Assembly: GCF_004367585.1 (NCBI RefSeq)
Contig: NZ_CP038015.1
Span: 2,796,001-2,860,000 of the forward strand
Direction of reading: 5' to 3'
From: Paenisporosarcina antarctica
GTDB lineage: Bacteria > Bacillota > Bacilli > Bacillales_A > Planococcaceae
DNA: 64,000 bases
Shown: positions 10,150-61,957 of the stretch, one piece after another
Layout of the letters: the number at the start of each line of letters is the position of its first letter
How positions within the stretch are numbered: position 1 is the first letter of the stretch
Notes under the pieces: generated by a model
What the model was told of the DNA's origin: nothing
What the model saw: only the letters and a program-made list of their open reading frames with translations
Database searches by the model: none
Position numbers and translations under genes: made by a program

Positions 10150-10260
10150 ATGGCTCTAGTGGCGAACGATGGCTCAGTTGTAATTATGGGCTGTCACGTT
10201 GTAATTTTGGACGGTGACGTTGTAAAAATTGCCTCCCACGTTGAAATAGTAAAATTATGG
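10150..10260 (+). repeat. 21-bp-period array A1
   Basis: The core GTTGTAA (last copy GTTGAAA) recurs at 10177, 10198, 10219 and 10240, exactly 21 bases apart. A leader, GGCGAACGATGGCTCAG, is shared with the array at 37438. In one frame it reads as heptads such as HVVILDG-DVVKIAS-HVEIVKL. It lies between the converging 8337 and icmF genes; the rest of 9876-10716 holds terminators and no gene. Confidence 0.85.
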
Positions 10261-15935: not shown

Positions 15936-16014
15936 AATGTTTATAGACCATAAATAATATTAAACATAGCATGTTTTATAAAATGTTCCTGATTACATTA
16001 CTAATATTATTCAT

Positions 16015-16565
16015 ATAAGCGAGCAGAGGGTGGCGACTCCTAGGGAATCAGCAAGCTAATCAAGACCCTGGACTGAGTGTCACGAAGGAAGCGGCTTGAT
16101 TAGCTTGCCCCTTGGAAACCGTCCACCTGGAGCGACGCTAATCTCTAGTAGATTTTTAACTTAGTTAGTGCTTTCTAATAACAAAACATTGAATCTCATG
16201 GCCATAGTTATTACTTACCATTAACCATATAAGCTAGCGGAAGGTGGCGACTCCTAGGGAATCAGCAAGCTAATCAAGACCCTGGACTGAGTGTCACGAA
16301 GGAAGCGGCTTGATGCTTGCTCCCAGGAAAGCGTCCACCTGGAGCGACGCTAATCTATAGTAGATTTTCAACTTAGTTAGTGTTACCAATAACAAAACAT
16401 TGAATTTCATGGCCATAGTTATTACTTACCATTATAAGCAAGCGGCAGCTGGCGACTCCTAGGGGATTAGCAAGCCACTTAAAACCCTGGACTGAGCATC
16501 GCGAGGGAAGCGGCTTGATGCTTGCTCCCAGGAAAGCGTCAACCTGTAGCGACTCTAGTCTATAA
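16015..16565. repeat. Three tandem copies of a ~205-214 bp hairpin-rich repeat
   Basis: GGCGACTCCTAGGG recurs with starts near 16032, 16246 and 16451. Each copy has a GC-rich half (GACCCTGGACTGAG, GGAAGCGGCTTGAT, GTCCACCTGGAGCGAC) and an AT-rich half (TTAGTTAGTG, ATGGCCATAGTTATTACTTA). In copy 1 GCAAGCTAATCAAG and CTTGATTAGCTTGC form a perfect 14-bp inverted repeat. It fills the space between mmgC and acdA; no gene is present. Confidence 0.85.
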
Positions 16566-16572
16566 TAGACTC

Positions 16573-19920: not shown

Positions 19921-20000
19921 TGCTCTAGTTGTAATTTTAAGCTGTTTAGTTGTATTTATCTATGCTCTAGTTGTAAATATTCGAGTTGACGTTGTAATTT
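19921..20000 (+). repeat. 21-bp-period array A2
   Basis: GTTGTA recurs at 19928, 19949, 19970 and 19991, exactly 21 bases apart, with variable bases between (TTTAAGCTGTTTA, TATCTATGCTCTA). It lies between the mmgA promoter and the fadF terminator on the strand opposite the genes. In one frame it reads LVVILSC-LVVFIYA-LVVNIRV. Confidence 0.85.
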
Positions 20001-20170: not shown

Positions 20171-20230
20171 GGCCCACACGATGTGGGTCAGGAAGGCGTT
20201 CCGACACGATGTCGGGCATTTAGCCTTCCT
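20171..20230. repeat. Two-hairpin structured module, copy 1
   Basis: Stem CCCAC/GTGGG with loop ACGAT, then AGGAAGGC (20190-20197) pairing with GCCTTCCT (20223-20230) around an inner stem CCGAC/GTCGG, again with loop ACGAT. A copy with different but still pairing bases is at 40200-40257. It adjoins the 120-bp array. Confidence 0.75.
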
Positions 20231-20299
20231 TCCGTTATCCGAGAAAACGAGTTTTCGATTCGTTTGCTCCTGCGGTTACTCGTCGCAAAGGAAACCTTG

Positions 20300-20828
20300 C
20301 TTCCAGCGCCTGTGATGAGCTTGAGTGGGCTTCTATGCTTTTCAGTGTTGTCTAGCTCCGAAGCCCAGCTCACACCTAAGCTTCAGAAACTCATTCGAAA
20401 ACGAGTTTTCGATTCGTTTCTTCCAGCGCCGGTGATGAGCTTGAGTGGGCTTCTATGCTTTTCAGTGTTGTCTAGCTCCGAAGCCCAGCTCACACCTAAG
20501 CTTCAGAAACTCATTCGAAAACGAGTTTTCGATTCGTTTCTTCCAGCGCCGGTGATGAGCTTGAGTGGGCTTCTACGCTTTTCAGTGTTGTCTAGCTCCG
20601 AAGCCCAGCTCACACCTAAGCTTCAGAAACTCATTCGAAAACGAGTTTTCGATTCGTTTCTTCCAGCGCCGGTGATGAGCTTGAGTGGGCTTCTACGCTT
20701 TTCAGTGTTGTCTAGCTCCGAAGCCCAGCTCACACCTAAGCTTCAGAAACTCATTCGAAAACGAGTTTTCGATTCGTTTCTTCCAGCGCCGGTGATGAGC
20801 TTGAGTGGGCTTCTACGCTTTTCAGTGT
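20300..20828. repeat. 120-bp tandem repeat array (four full copies plus a partial one)
   Basis: Units start CTTCCAGCGCC at 20300, 20420, 20540, 20660 and 20780. Copies are nearly identical: copies 1-2 read CTTCTATGC and copies 3-5 CTTCTACGC, and copy 1 alone has CCTGTGATG. Each unit holds the palindrome TCGAAAACGAGTTTTCGA. The last unit breaks off in TTTTCAGTGT, where it joins the 3' end of fadF. An open frame across the array is a by-product of the 120-bp (40-codon) period. Confidence 0.95.
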
Positions 20829-35929: not shown

Positions 35930-36004
35930 GGTTGGGAGAATATAAGCTTTTGCTAAAGTGAGCATGAGCTGATTCACACCATTCCTATCCTCGTAGGGTT
36001 GCGG

Positions 36005-36178
36005 GCGTTACGCACGTAGGCAGGTCTCCTGGCTTGTGATCAATGGAATGGCGCGTCTTCCCAAAGCAAATGCTTCAGTGACATGATGCGCTTTCCTCTC
36101 ACATACAGTGGCGGGACCGCGTCGGAGTTGAACCGACTTCCCTTTTAACTCTGCGATTAAAGCAGAGCACCTTCGTGT
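36005..36178 (-). ncRNA. Cobalamin riboswitch
   Basis: The minus strand contains the exact B12 box AGCCAGGAGACCTGCCT (36018-36034) and the upstream core elements GGTGCTCTGC, AAAAGGGAAGTCGG, GACGCGGTCCCGCCACTGT. The order and spacing match the AdoCbl riboswitch class. A terminator lies about 90 bases downstream and btuF begins after that, so adenosylcobalamin should shut off the 13-gene salvage operon. Confidence 0.96.
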
Positions 36179-36200
36179 TGAAACTATGTAATTCAACTTT

Positions 36201-37310: not shown

Positions 37311-37437
37311 GAGGGTCTTCAACAACTTAATTGGTGTGGTCGGATTTCTCAGATGTAACACGCAGGGAAGGATTATCGTGATGAAGTTGTTTAAATTTCA
37401 CGCTACAATCGACTAAATAGTTTTCATTATTTAACTA

Positions 37438-37530
37438 TTAAAACGTGAAGCTTAATATTTACAACGTGAAGACTTATTTTTACAACGTCAACCTCCATAA
37501 TTACAACGTGATACCGAATAATTACAACTG
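37438..37530 (-). repeat. 21-bp-period array A3
   Basis: TTACAAC (first copy TTAAAAC) recurs at 37438, 37459, 37480, 37501 and 37522, exactly 21 bases apart. The complementary strand reads GTTGTAA. The leader on that side, GGCGAGCGTTAGCTCAG, is shared with array A1. On the minus strand it reads heptads HVVIMEV-DVVKISL-HVVNIKL. Confidence 0.88.
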
Positions 37531-37607
37531 AGCTAACGCTCGCCTAGATTTAATGTACGATAGAGTGTGACATAGGGCTCTATATAGAAGGTTTGGCACC
37601 GTGACAC

Positions 37608-40147: not shown

Positions 40148-40328
40148 TTTCCGTTACAGGCGGACGCGTTCCGCGGGGCGATCGCCAAGCCTCCTCAGGC
40201 CAACAGGATGTTGGTCACAAAGGCGTTGCCACACGAGGTGGCGTTTTTAGCCTTTGTTCCCACTGTTCGCTACCTGCGGGGTCTCGTCTGTCTCGCTTTT
40301 CCCGCGGAGTCGCCGCCTTCCACTTCAA
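40148..40328. repeat. GC-rich imperfect inverted-repeat element with structured insert
   Basis: The left edge ATTTCCGTTACAGGCGGACG and the right edge, inverted, GATTGAAGTGGAAGGCGGCG, are imperfectly complementary. The same flanks occur near 15800-15930. Between GCCTCCTCAGG and CACTG this copy carries the two-hairpin module (40200-40257) that the other copy lacks. Confidence 0.75.
40200..40257. repeat. Two-hairpin structured module, copy 2
   Basis: Stem CCAAC/GTTGG with loop AGGAT, then ACAAAGGC (40217-40224) pairing with GCCTTTGT (40250-40257) around the inner stem GCCAC/GTGGC with loop ACGAG. All three stems also pair in the 20171 copy with different bases. Confidence 0.75.
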
Positions 40329-41943: not shown

Positions 41944-42105
41944 ATGATTAACAAGTCTATTTTACATTTTAGGGGCGTTACGGACCTCTCTTTAACTAGA
42001 GAATGGACACTTACTATTCAAAAAATGATACGGGAAGAATTTTGCAACACTTTAAAGTGCCTAGCATGGTCAAAAAAGCTAAAGCCCTAGTCATTATTAT
42101 CTATC

Positions 42106-42320
42106 TCGAGTTAATTATGGAAGGTGACGTCGGAAAAATCGTAATTAACGTTAGAAAAGTGAAATTTTATTTTCAATTCATGGGTTTATTCCCATTCACT
42201 TTAAGTTTATTCCCGTTCATGCTTGGATTAATCTCGTTCGAACGCAGTTTATTCCCGTTCAAATTGATTTAATCCCGTTCAAACACGTTTTATTCCCGTT
42301 CACCCTATTATTCCCAATAA
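42106..42320 (+). repeat. 21-bp-period array B (FPF-type core, with A-like units before it)
   Basis: The core TTTATTCCCGTTCA has its CCC (CTC in the third unit) at 42191, 42212, 42233, 42254, 42274, 42295 and 42313, so periods are 21, 21, 21, 20, 21 and 18. Upstream, ACGTCGGAAAA (42127) and ACGTTAGAAAA (42148) are 21 apart and resemble array A. One frame reads LFPFTLS-LFPFMLG-LISFERS-LFPFKLI. It lies between converging genes. Confidence 0.85.
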
Positions 42321-57242: not shown

Positions 57243-57526
57243 AGTAACTCCCCCTATCCTCTAATTATTTAGACGAATTATTAGGTAGATAGTTTCATGT
57301 TTCTGGGTCATTTTCAATAACAGGACTACTGCAGCATAACCTCAAAATGGTTGCCATATGGTATCTGCTTAGTTCGTTATGAACGGCAAACACACTGCTT
57401 CAACTTTAATCAACTCTGTGAGAGTGTCACACCAAACCAATTAATACCTTATTTAATAGAAATTTAGTTCAAAATACCGCTAAGTGTTAACATTATTACC
57501 GGCTAATGATTAACATAAATTCACAA

Positions 57527-57620
57527 TTACAACGTGGATCGCAATTTTTACAACGTGAAGCTTTATTTTTACAACGTCAACTCCAAGAATTACAACGTGA
57601 CAGCCAATAATTACAACTGA
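57527..57620 (-). repeat. 21-bp-period array A4
   Basis: TTACAAC recurs at 57527, 57548, 57569, 57590 and 57611, exactly 21 bases apart. Minus-strand heptads read HVVILGV-DVVKIKL-HVVKIAI-HVVIVNL. It lies in the gene-free stretch 57243-57984. Confidence 0.9.
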
Positions 57621-57715
57621 GAACTATCTCCCGACAAAATTTATCGCTCAAACACGTTTCAAAGCCTAGTTAACTTGATGAAACAACAGCGAAGTTGCTC
57701 CTATTTAGGCATTTC

Positions 57716-60503: not shown

Positions 60504-60563
60504 ACTTTCATCAATTTTTGGTAATATGGAATTCAGATACTTATTGAAATGAGGAATTCGAAT

Positions 60564-61391
60564 ATGAAAAAAACGTTAACTATCGCAGGTTCTGATACTT
60601 CAGGTGGAGCAGGAATACAAGCAGATTTAAAAACGTTCCAAGAGCACGGCACATATGGAATGAATGCCTTAACAGTCATCGTAACAATGGATCCAGAAAA
60701 TGGTTGGAGCCACGGAATCTATCCGATTTCAGTTGAAACGTTGCAGGCTCAATTGAAGACCGCCCTTTCAACTAATGTGGATGCTATCAAAACAGGCATG
60801 TTACCGACCGTTGAGATCATTCAAACAGCTGCCGAAGCAATTGATCAATCAGCCGTTAAGAATGTTGTCATTGATCCTGTACTCGTTTGTAAAGGTGAAG
60901 ATGAGGCCTTATTTCCTGAAAATGTAGATGCTATGGTGAAATTATTGCTACCTCGCGCTTTGGTTGTAACGCCAAACTTATTCGAAGCGGGTCAACTTTC
61001 TGGACTTGAGACATTACACACTATTGACGATATGAAACGTGCTGCAGCAAAAATTCATGAAGCTGGCGCAAAAAATGTCGTTATTAAAGGCGGCAAACAA
61101 TTGCAACATGACAAAGCAGTCGACTTATTCTTCGATGGGTCTACTTACACCCTACTTGAATCACAAAAAACAGATACTACTTACAATCACGGTGCTGGTT
61201 GCACATTTGCAGCTGCTATCACAGCTAACTTAGCGAACGGTCTAGCTGTAAAAGAATCAGTTATTGAAGCAAAGAAATTTGTCTCAGCTGCTATTGCGAA
61301 TGGCTGGAAGTTAAATCAATATGTTGGACCCGTGATGCACGGAGCGAAAAATCGCTTTGGCGCACCAGAAGTCACAACATCTGAAATATAA
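60564..61391 (+). CDS. pdxK: Pyridoxine/pyridoxal kinase PdxK (ThiD-like)
   Basis: Ribokinase-fold enzyme of 275 residues that phosphorylates B6 vitamers and possibly hydroxymethylpyrimidine. TIAGSDTSGGAGIQADLKTF, KTGMLPTVEII, VVIDPVLVCKG, VVTPNLFEAGQLSG and the catalytic NHGAGCTFAAA with the Cys found in B. subtilis PdxK (YwdB) are visible. The ATG at 60564 (GAGGA eight bases before) is used; an upstream ATG adds five residues. A strong terminator follows. Confidence 0.9.
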   Translation: MKKTLTIAGSDTSGGAGIQADLKTFQEHGTYGMNALTVIVTMDPENGWSHGIYPISVETLQAQLKTALSTNVDAIKTGMLPTVEIIQTAAEAIDQSAVKNVVIDPVLVCKGEDEALFPENVDAMVKLLLPRALVVTPNLFEAGQLSGLETLHTIDDMKRAAAKIHEAGAKNVVIKGGKQLQHDKAVDLFFDGSTYTLLESQKTDTTYNHGAGCTFAAAITANLANGLAVKESVIEAKKFVSAAIANGWKLNQYVGPVMHGAKNRFGAPEVTTSEI

Positions 61392-61399
61392 TCTTACGA

Positions 61400-61434
61400 A
61401 AAGTCATCCGAAATCACTTCGGATGACTTTTTTT
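61400..61434 (+). terminator. pdxK terminator
   Basis: Perfect 13-bp stem AAAGTCATCCGAA / TTCGGATGACTTT with loop ATCAC and a run of seven T. Confidence 0.92.
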
Positions 61435-61471
61435 GTTCGATTTAAGGGTTTTTATAGGGTGAGAAGTCGCT

Positions 61472-61580
61472 TAGTTGTAATTTTCGCGGGTTTAGTTGTA
61501 AAAATTGAGCATTTAGTTGTAATTTTGAGCACTTTAGTTGTAAAAATAGCCACTTTAGTTGTAATAGTAAAATTATGGAA
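61472..61580 (+). repeat. 21-bp-period array A5
   Basis: TAGTTGTAA (or TAGTTGTAAAAAT) recurs at 61472, 61493, 61514, 61535 and 61556, exactly 21 bases apart, with TAATTTT and TAAAAAT alternating in the first four. The array ends GTAATAGTAAAATTATGG, as array A1 does. Plus-strand heptads read LVVIFAG-LVVKIEH-LVVILST-LVVKIAT. Confidence 0.92.
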
Positions 61581-61620: not shown

Positions 61621-61957
61621 GGTTGTACAATATATGACGTTGGTGAATTAAAATCCCACAGGAGCGTGTTTTTCGCGACGAGGAGGCTGAAGCCGAGCCC
61701 GCGGAAAGCGTCCATCTGTTTTTGTTTCTGTTTCTGCATCGCTACGCTAGCTTCGAAACATGAAGGTGCTGCATCGCTTTGCTAGCTTCGAAACATGAAA
61801 GTGCGCTGGAACGGAAAGCAACTGGATACTTGACTAATCGTAAGAAAAGACTGCCGTAAAAAGTCAGTTTTACTGACTTTCTGGACAGTCCGCGATAAAT
61901 AAATCAATCAATTATAGCCAACTAAAATTCTGTACCAACGTCATTTGACAAATAACC
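61621..61957. mobile_element. MITE-like element, copy 4 (337 bp)
   Basis: The left end GGTTGTACAATATATGACG and the right end, inverted, GGTTATTTGTCAAATGACG both continue into TTGGTA. A possible target duplication is CATTTATG / CCTTTATA (6 of 8). The interior has the GC-rich core, a short TCTGTT run and two copies of the module CTAGCTTCGAAACATGAA. No gene is present in 61392-61970. Confidence 0.72.

Follow-up and report, generated by a model that had tools for sequence, protein, structure and literature searches.

Phased 21-bp repeat arrays of Paenisporosarcina antarctica as candidate DNA docking platforms

Within a 64,000-nucleotide stretch of the Paenisporosarcina antarctica genome (hereafter, the window), short GTTGTAA-type cores recur between genes at a strict interval of 21 bp, one array of this kind lying near position 61,472. 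A reading made from the letters alone suggested that such arrays could be protein-binding platforms on one face of the DNA, a mobile repeat or relics of a gene encoding seven-residue repeats. Which of these options, if any, fits the arrays, and whether they act as DNA, as RNA or as a coding sequence, is the question that this locus raises.

Phased arrays in the window and across the genome

The five loci with four or five GTTGTAA-type cores proposed in that sequence-only reading are all real: GTTGTAA-N14-GTTGTAA with at most one mismatch occurs 18 times in the window, compared with a mean of 0.07 and a maximum of 1 in 100 dinucleotide shuffles, and the spacing of 21 bp holds, as had been counted, at every step in all five arrays, some cores of which carry one mismatch (Table 1). 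The leaders of A1 and A3 are indeed similar and A1 and A5 do share an end, AATAGTAAAATTATGG, but the first core of the focal array A5 begins at 61474 and not at 61472 as initially given; its match to the profile model described below covers 61459-61580 (57.6 bits). The sixth, decayed copy in the window has mutated cores (e.g. GTCGGAA and GTTAGAA), while one of its spacers, TTATGGAAGGTGAC, equals the consensus, as expected once constraint on the cores is lost, this being a single case. Directly 3' of it lies an array with a different core (class B), of which one more exact two-core place was found in the home genome and two in P. indica. Other repeats and RNA elements in the window comprise a 120-bp unit repeated 4.4 times with 99% matches (20300-20828), adjoining a Bacillaceae-1 RNA match (20173-20239); a 205-bp tandem repeat of 2.7 copies with 88% matches (16013-16569); a second Bacillaceae-1 RNA (40200-40266) and a cobalamin riboswitch (36002-36189), both on the minus strand; and two copies of a 35-bp direct repeat (61734-61804) about 170 bp 3' of the focal array.

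Table 1. Coordinates of the arrays and neighbouring features in the window
Feature	Coordinates	Strand	Basis or score
A1 leader (GTGGCGAACGATGGCTCA)	10159..10176	+	sequence comparison
Array A1, four cores (one unit fewer, phase kept) and tail	10177..10260	+	73.8 bits
Array A2, four cores, divergent, without typical leader or tail	19928..19998	+	33.1 bits
Array A3 (37438), leader, five units and tail	37421..37546	-	107.5 bits
Decayed class A copy, sixth in the window	42088..42169	+	profile search, 27.9 bits, E 1.7e-7
Class B array, core TTTATTCCCGTTCA, 21-bp period with one 20-bp step	42184..42310	+	limits by eye
Array A4 (57527), leader, five units and tail	57510..57636	-	103.0 bits
Gene upstream of and co-oriented with A5, phosphomethylpyrimidine kinase family	60549..61391	+	Pfam PF08543, E 8.3e-82
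Intrinsic terminator of the upstream gene (hairpin and T-run)	61401..61434	+	read from sequence
Focal array A5, TTTA-GTTGTAA subtype	61474..61564	+	cores at 61474, 61495, 61516, 61537, 61558
A5 tail, running on from the fifth core (AATAGTAAAATTATGGAA), alike in other copies	61565..61580	+	sequence comparison

The home genome (G000) consists of two contigs, and all array clusters lie on the main one, of 3.89 Mb. A search for exact GTTGTAA pairs at 21 bp gave 81, compared with 1 for the reversed control, and these form 28 clusters corresponding to 27 arrays, one array being divided by an insertion. With the spacing left free between 10 and 40 bp, 86 pairs were obtained (reversed control, 3), of which 81 are at exactly 21 bp and the remaining five at 18, 36, 38, 38 and 39 bp; genome-wide copies that had lost their phase, which had been named as evidence against a phased family, were thus not found. 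The genome search with a 21-bp profile that had been recommended was made with a profile built from the 19 five-unit copies and gave 50 matches at E <=1, 35 of them below 1e-4. With the divided array counted twice among these, they amount to at least 34 loci, a lower bound because 150 of 1997 candidates were scored, namely the 27 exact arrays and 7 divergent ones. Two divergent copies (3231599 and 2594762) have mostly GTTGGAA cores together with a leader and tail similar to those of the GTTGTAA copies, and six of the nine exact GTTGGAA pairs in this genome are at 21 bp. The insertion falls between two units at L010 (main contig, approximately 2078510-2079940) and carries two transposase-like ORFs, from whose products we take it to be an IS3-family element. 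The 27 arrays leave 1.20-2.08 Mb of the main contig empty; before this gap 8 of 9 arrays are on the plus strand and after it 13 of 18 are on the minus strand, as if the arrays were co-oriented with replication.

The consensus module consists of the leader TGTCGAGCGATAGCTCA, units 1-4 of 21 bp each and a fifth core that runs into the tail AATAGTTAAATTATGGAA. Units 1 and 2 mostly contain AATTAT and units 3 and 4 mostly AAAAAT, from which it follows that unit order is inherited. Spacer identity reaches 0.70 for same-numbered units of different arrays, compared with 0.466 for different units within one array and 0.477 for different units of different arrays; copying thus involved the entire module, without later homogenisation of its units. 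Beyond the module, flank comparison revealed a left arm of about 70 bp common to about a dozen copies and a weak right arm. The flanks of the home arrays (L001-L021 and the window) are a patchwork of other repeats dispersed between genes, among them GCTGTCGGA..TCCGACAGC hairpins.

The claim that spacing is kept while the bases between the cores drift held up. Compared pairwise, the 19 home copies differ on average by 0.026 in the core, by 0.204 in the A/T stretch, by 0.423, 0.289 and 0.134 at unit positions 12-17, 18-19 and 20-21, respectively, by 0.352 in the leader and by 0.268 in the tail. The conservation of the core is inflated here, because matching cores served to find these copies. The pheT orthologues described below, the only comparison that avoids this bias, at one locus in three species, agree.

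The further claim that one frame stays open everywhere failed. By eye, A2 and A3 reach a stop in the last unit, and of the 19 five-unit home arrays, 13 keep the GTT GTA frame open and 6 have a stop in it. A coding signal seemed significant when spacers were shuffled (15 arrays with a stop expected, hence about 4/19 open), but this null breaks column composition, and a column permutation that preserves it gave 5.12 arrays with a stop; the signal was dropped. The recommended check of codon drift likewise spoke against the frame, since position 3 changes no faster than position 1 (0.335 and 0.346, respectively).

Orthologous loci and exchange of the core

The region 3' of pheT was fetched by the gene alone from nine members of the genus, including the home genome, pheT identity to the latter being 81-86% for six of the eight relatives. 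A five-unit array is present there in G000, G004 and G006. In the three comparisons among these species, the cores agree at 35/35, 32/35 and 32/35 positions and the spacers at 30/56, 33/56 and 37/56 (Fisher p 1.8e-7, 7.6e-4 and 6e-3, respectively), the excess of the core being smaller with G006. Within the 620 bp read, no array follows pheT in G008, G002, G005 and G007, so that no one site can be essential. In G001, the array is of other sequence (GATCGATTCTC type, by eye), and the contig of G003 does not reach the site.

The gatB locus, also fetched by gene, was found in eight of the nine genomes. In G005, GTCTGAA is the core of the units that come after the leader TGAGCGGATGCTCA; by eye, G002 and G008 carry an GTTTGATTGATAAA-type array of approximately 20-21 bp 3' of a terminator, and G001 an AACCC-type array. 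No array was seen at gatB in G004 and G006, the latter having a single GATTGATAAA word, and the contig of G007 ends about 300 bp behind the gene.

From the gatB units of G005, GTCTGAA was predicted to be common in that genome, and 36 pairs were found, together with 24 in G004 and 11 in G006; across these three genomes, 67 of 71 pairs are at 21 bp, 3 at 20 and 1 at 24 (control, 5). The home genome has a single GTCTGAA pair, not at 21 bp, and G001, G002, G007 and G008 have 1, 2, 1 and 3 pairs, respectively, one of them at 21 bp in each of G002, G007 and G008. GTTGGAA pairs number 177 in G007 (control, 0), all but one at 21 bp among the pairs listed, 52 in G004 and 35 in G195. The dominant core accordingly is GTTGTAA in G000, GTTGGAA in G007 and GTCTGAA in G005, and all three occur in G004. 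The scaffold is nevertheless shared between cores: among the loci scanned, with leaderless arrays uncounted, five distinct arrays with the core GTTGTAA and five with GTCTGAA have the TGAGCG..CTCA leader directly next to them.

Arrays with three GTTGYAA cores, identified by a pattern that fixes the 21-bp spacing, occur in 13 of 261 genomes of the family, the home genome included; the reversed control pattern also matched other genomes, and those matches are repeats with other cores. Outside the genus, the free-spacing test was run in G103 only, where the word ACGTTG gave 102 pairs (control, 15), and among the pairs listed only five depart from 21 bp; the unit of this genome reads AACGTTGtgTATCT..g..gA (76 distinct units). 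Further phased repeats, by eye of GAGTGTCAACTTC, TCTAATTGCAAAT and TATTGTAAATCTGC types, stand beside the ACGTTG arrays at the G103 loci L251, L257 and L262. At L081, L082 and L148 (Bacillus sp. FJAT-22090; genus label as Psychrobacillus sp. NEAU-3TGS), entire arrays recur in tandem as super-repeats, many of which end in an GGATATTTTATCC-type palindrome.

Beyond the family, six of the nine non-viral loci read (L030, L062, L080, L048, L026 and L028) are homogeneous 21-bp repeats that contain GTTGTAA, such repeats occurring in Fischerella, Nostoc and Bacteroidetes records; in L087 the core takes many forms, and L083 mixes 7-bp steps. Among the viral loci, three of 25 stretches were read, and L185 and L174 are homogeneous, whereas L188 is not.

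Position and relation to described repeats

Mapping of the arrays relative to genes, another check that had been recommended, places them mostly in gaps behind terminators. The first core of A5 begins about 40 bp behind the terminator of the upstream gene, and the terminator scan scored a site 46 bp before this core. Among 95 array entries from five groups, 58 of 190 flanks have, within 200 bp, a terminator-like site directed towards the array (38 upstream and, in mirror image, 20 downstream) and 17 have one directed away from it (15 and 2, respectively), in raw counts; a forward site thus follows the array in only 2 of the 95 entries. Sites pointing at and away from the array number 20 and 3 in the home genome (28 entries), 13 and 6 in other members of the genus (18), 8 and 3 in the Psychrobacillus group (15), 11 and 2 in the Planococcus group (14) and 6 and 3 in G103 (20), so that the tendency of arrays to occupy such gaps is weak in G103. 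In the home genome, 22 of the 27 arrays lie 3' of a co-oriented gene when ORFs of at least 90 aa are considered (binomial 7.6e-4); a minimum ORF length of 110 aa gives 23 of 27. The rule that arrays always stand behind a co-oriented gene, strong in the home genome, was dropped as a general one, since it does not hold in G103: of 22 arrays there, 10 follow it, 10 contradict it and 2 are undetermined.

Constant-size tandem repeats of 20-21 or 52 nt have been described in Bacillus and other bacteria by Subirana and Messeguer in 2021 (PMC8161180). According to the available text of that paper, these repeats are mostly non-coding, have species-specific sequences, form several families per genome and in most cases contain a short conserved signal; its authors note the correspondence to two helical turns and propose either a protein polymerising on DNA or a small RNA. 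As far as this text describes it, the arrays reported here belong to the same 20-21-nt class: their size is constant (81/86 GTTGTAA pairs, 67/71 GTCTGAA pairs in three genomes, and G103), their sequences are species-specific with several families per genome (GTTGTAA, GTTGGAA, GTCTGAA and class B), they have a short conserved signal (core difference of 0.026 among copies found by core match), and they do not code for protein. Unlike the repeats as described in that text, they combine diverging spacers with constrained cores, have a recurring palindromic leader, differ in core between sister species on one scaffold and lie mostly behind terminators. What is added here to the class is therefore evidence of selection on the core, the exchange of cores on one scaffold, and the position. 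Exchange of the core on a shared leader was not found in the available text of PMC8161180, whose main text, supplements apart, has zero occurrences of Planococc-, Paenisporosarcina, "intergenic" and "terminat-". No paper joining Paenisporosarcina, repeats and intergenic location was found in the literature searched.

Several other systems resemble the arrays in part. Plasmid iterons are direct repeats of about 17-22 bp bound by Rep initiators and are alike in having several direct repeats at about two helical turns, but the arrays are dispersed over the chromosome in dozens of copies, and no initiator gene is found among the seven genes with Pfam matches of the ten window genes near arrays, the other three having no match. 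ParR-type centromeres, which are tandem repeats of about 20 bp, plasmid-borne and adjacent to a par operon, offer phased direct repeats on which a small protein assembles. The repeat-spacer units of known CRISPR loci are longer than the 21-bp units, as are the internal repeats of pneumococcal BOX elements, the layout of which, with two end modules enclosing internal repeats in variable number, is similar to that of the arrays. BOX elements are, in the available text of PMC3049150, dispersed intergenic modules as well.

A candidate docking platform and its rivals

Helical phasing, constrained cores with free spacers, the lack of RNA covariation and of frame constraint, and the position of the arrays outside transcription units together speak for arrays that function as double-stranded DNA and for a protein binding along one face of it. 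Among the three options first proposed, a protein-binding platform fits best the 21-bp phase, the constrained cores and the free spacers; this fit is the part of the proposal that stood, and the protein we infer from it. We give an approximately even chance to the reading that the arrays are docking platforms, at the level of DNA, for a cooperative DNA-binding protein. In this genus, a palindromic leader of the TGAGC-NNN-GCTCA type would be followed by usually five direct recognition sites at 21 bp, that is, two helical turns, which would place all sites on the same face of the helix. In each unit, a sequence-specific protein would recognise every base of a 7-bp core but ignore about 6 bp, the unit also containing an A/T-rich stretch, and its binding to the units would be cooperative. 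The modules would spread by copying, and most would come to lie in the gap after a transcription terminator; there, an array with protein bound could serve as a transcription roadblock or a local nucleoid anchor. Since the core differs in concert between sister species while the leader and the period persist, the specificity of such a protein would have to change. In this picture, the period, the constraint on the core, the similar leader, the exchange of cores and the position are observed, and the protein, its cooperativity and its purpose are inferred.

A more specific and more tentative proposal, which we regard as possible but doubtful, is that a fast-evolving DNA-binding protein co-evolves with its dozens of chromosomal arrays, which would act as roadblocks or anchors behind terminators, the core switching within the genus between GTTGTAA, GTTGGAA and GTCTGAA on a common scaffold. 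If true, this would be a bacterial parallel to the co-evolution of eukaryotic satellites and centromere proteins. How a 20-21-nt period is kept while the sequence changes is a question already posed in print (PMC8161180), with the mechanism unsettled, and the genus provides a tractable case, with related species, different cores and the same scaffold. A binding protein should hence be findable, either through matched and mismatched arrays or through a changed recognition surface.

The rival that survives best, although we consider it unlikely, is a non-autonomous mobile repeat whose phased cores are sites for a trans-acting transposase or copying enzyme, with no gain for the host. Leader, unit order and tail are largely common to the 19 five-unit copies, with a same-unit spacer identity of 0.70, and about a dozen copies also share the left arm; such spread as modules fits a selfish repeat as well, as do the patchy distribution (13/261 genomes) and the sister species without arrays at some loci. 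Flank comparison, however, shows no clear inverted ends, and the one transposase noticed beside an array belongs to the element that interrupts it. Moreover, the cores have stayed intact in copies with diverged spacers, although a selfish repeat, once inserted, would have no need of this, and the pheT site has the same core type in three species. The earlier suggestion of a mobile or dispersed repeat is thus partly right, as far as spread as a module is concerned.

Neutral minisatellites generated by replication slippage, with 21 bp as a mechanical preference, are a considerably less probable explanation than docking platforms or a mobile repeat. The homogeneous GTTGTAA repeats of Fischerella, Nostoc and Bacteroidetes and the tandem super-duplications of whole arrays in Psychrobacillus-group genomes are what slippage would produce. 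It would, however, homogenise whole units, whereas the spacers differ as much within as between arrays and only the cores are uniform; with no homogenisation of units inside an array, the uniformity of the cores is not accounted for by slippage, and the period remains 21 bp through the exchange of the core.

Slightly less probable again is a structured or repeat-type small RNA with GUUGUAA units as its active part. Transcription of such repeats as small RNA was raised by Subirana and Messeguer (PMC8161180, available text), UUGUAA can self-pair through G-U pairs, and the leader pairs better within than between arrays with unit 1 (p 0.010) and unit 5 (p 0.045), but neither value survives correction for the 15 unit pairs tested. 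The consensus fold of -1.29 lies within column shuffles (-0.52, sd 0.77, lowest -2.93), the best 7-bp helix is only 0.057 above expected pairing, and facing units show no covariation (units 2/3, z -0.43; units 1/4, z -0.07). A hairpin of units 2 and 3 seen by eye (GGAAGGT with ACCTCC) was discarded, its pairing being no better within than between arrays and its covariation negligible. Covarying conserved helices were thus not detected in the folding, pairing and covariation tests, the arrays of the window have no Rfam match at gathering thresholds, and the near absence of forward terminator-like sites downstream of the arrays also speaks against this RNA.

A relic of a gene for seven-residue repeats, suggested by 21 bp being seven codons and by the frame that appeared open under the spacer shuffle, is refuted for the GTTGTAA family by the frame tests, in which stops match the column-permuted null and codon positions drift alike, and the sister-species core GTCTGAA in addition puts TGA in the supposed frame.
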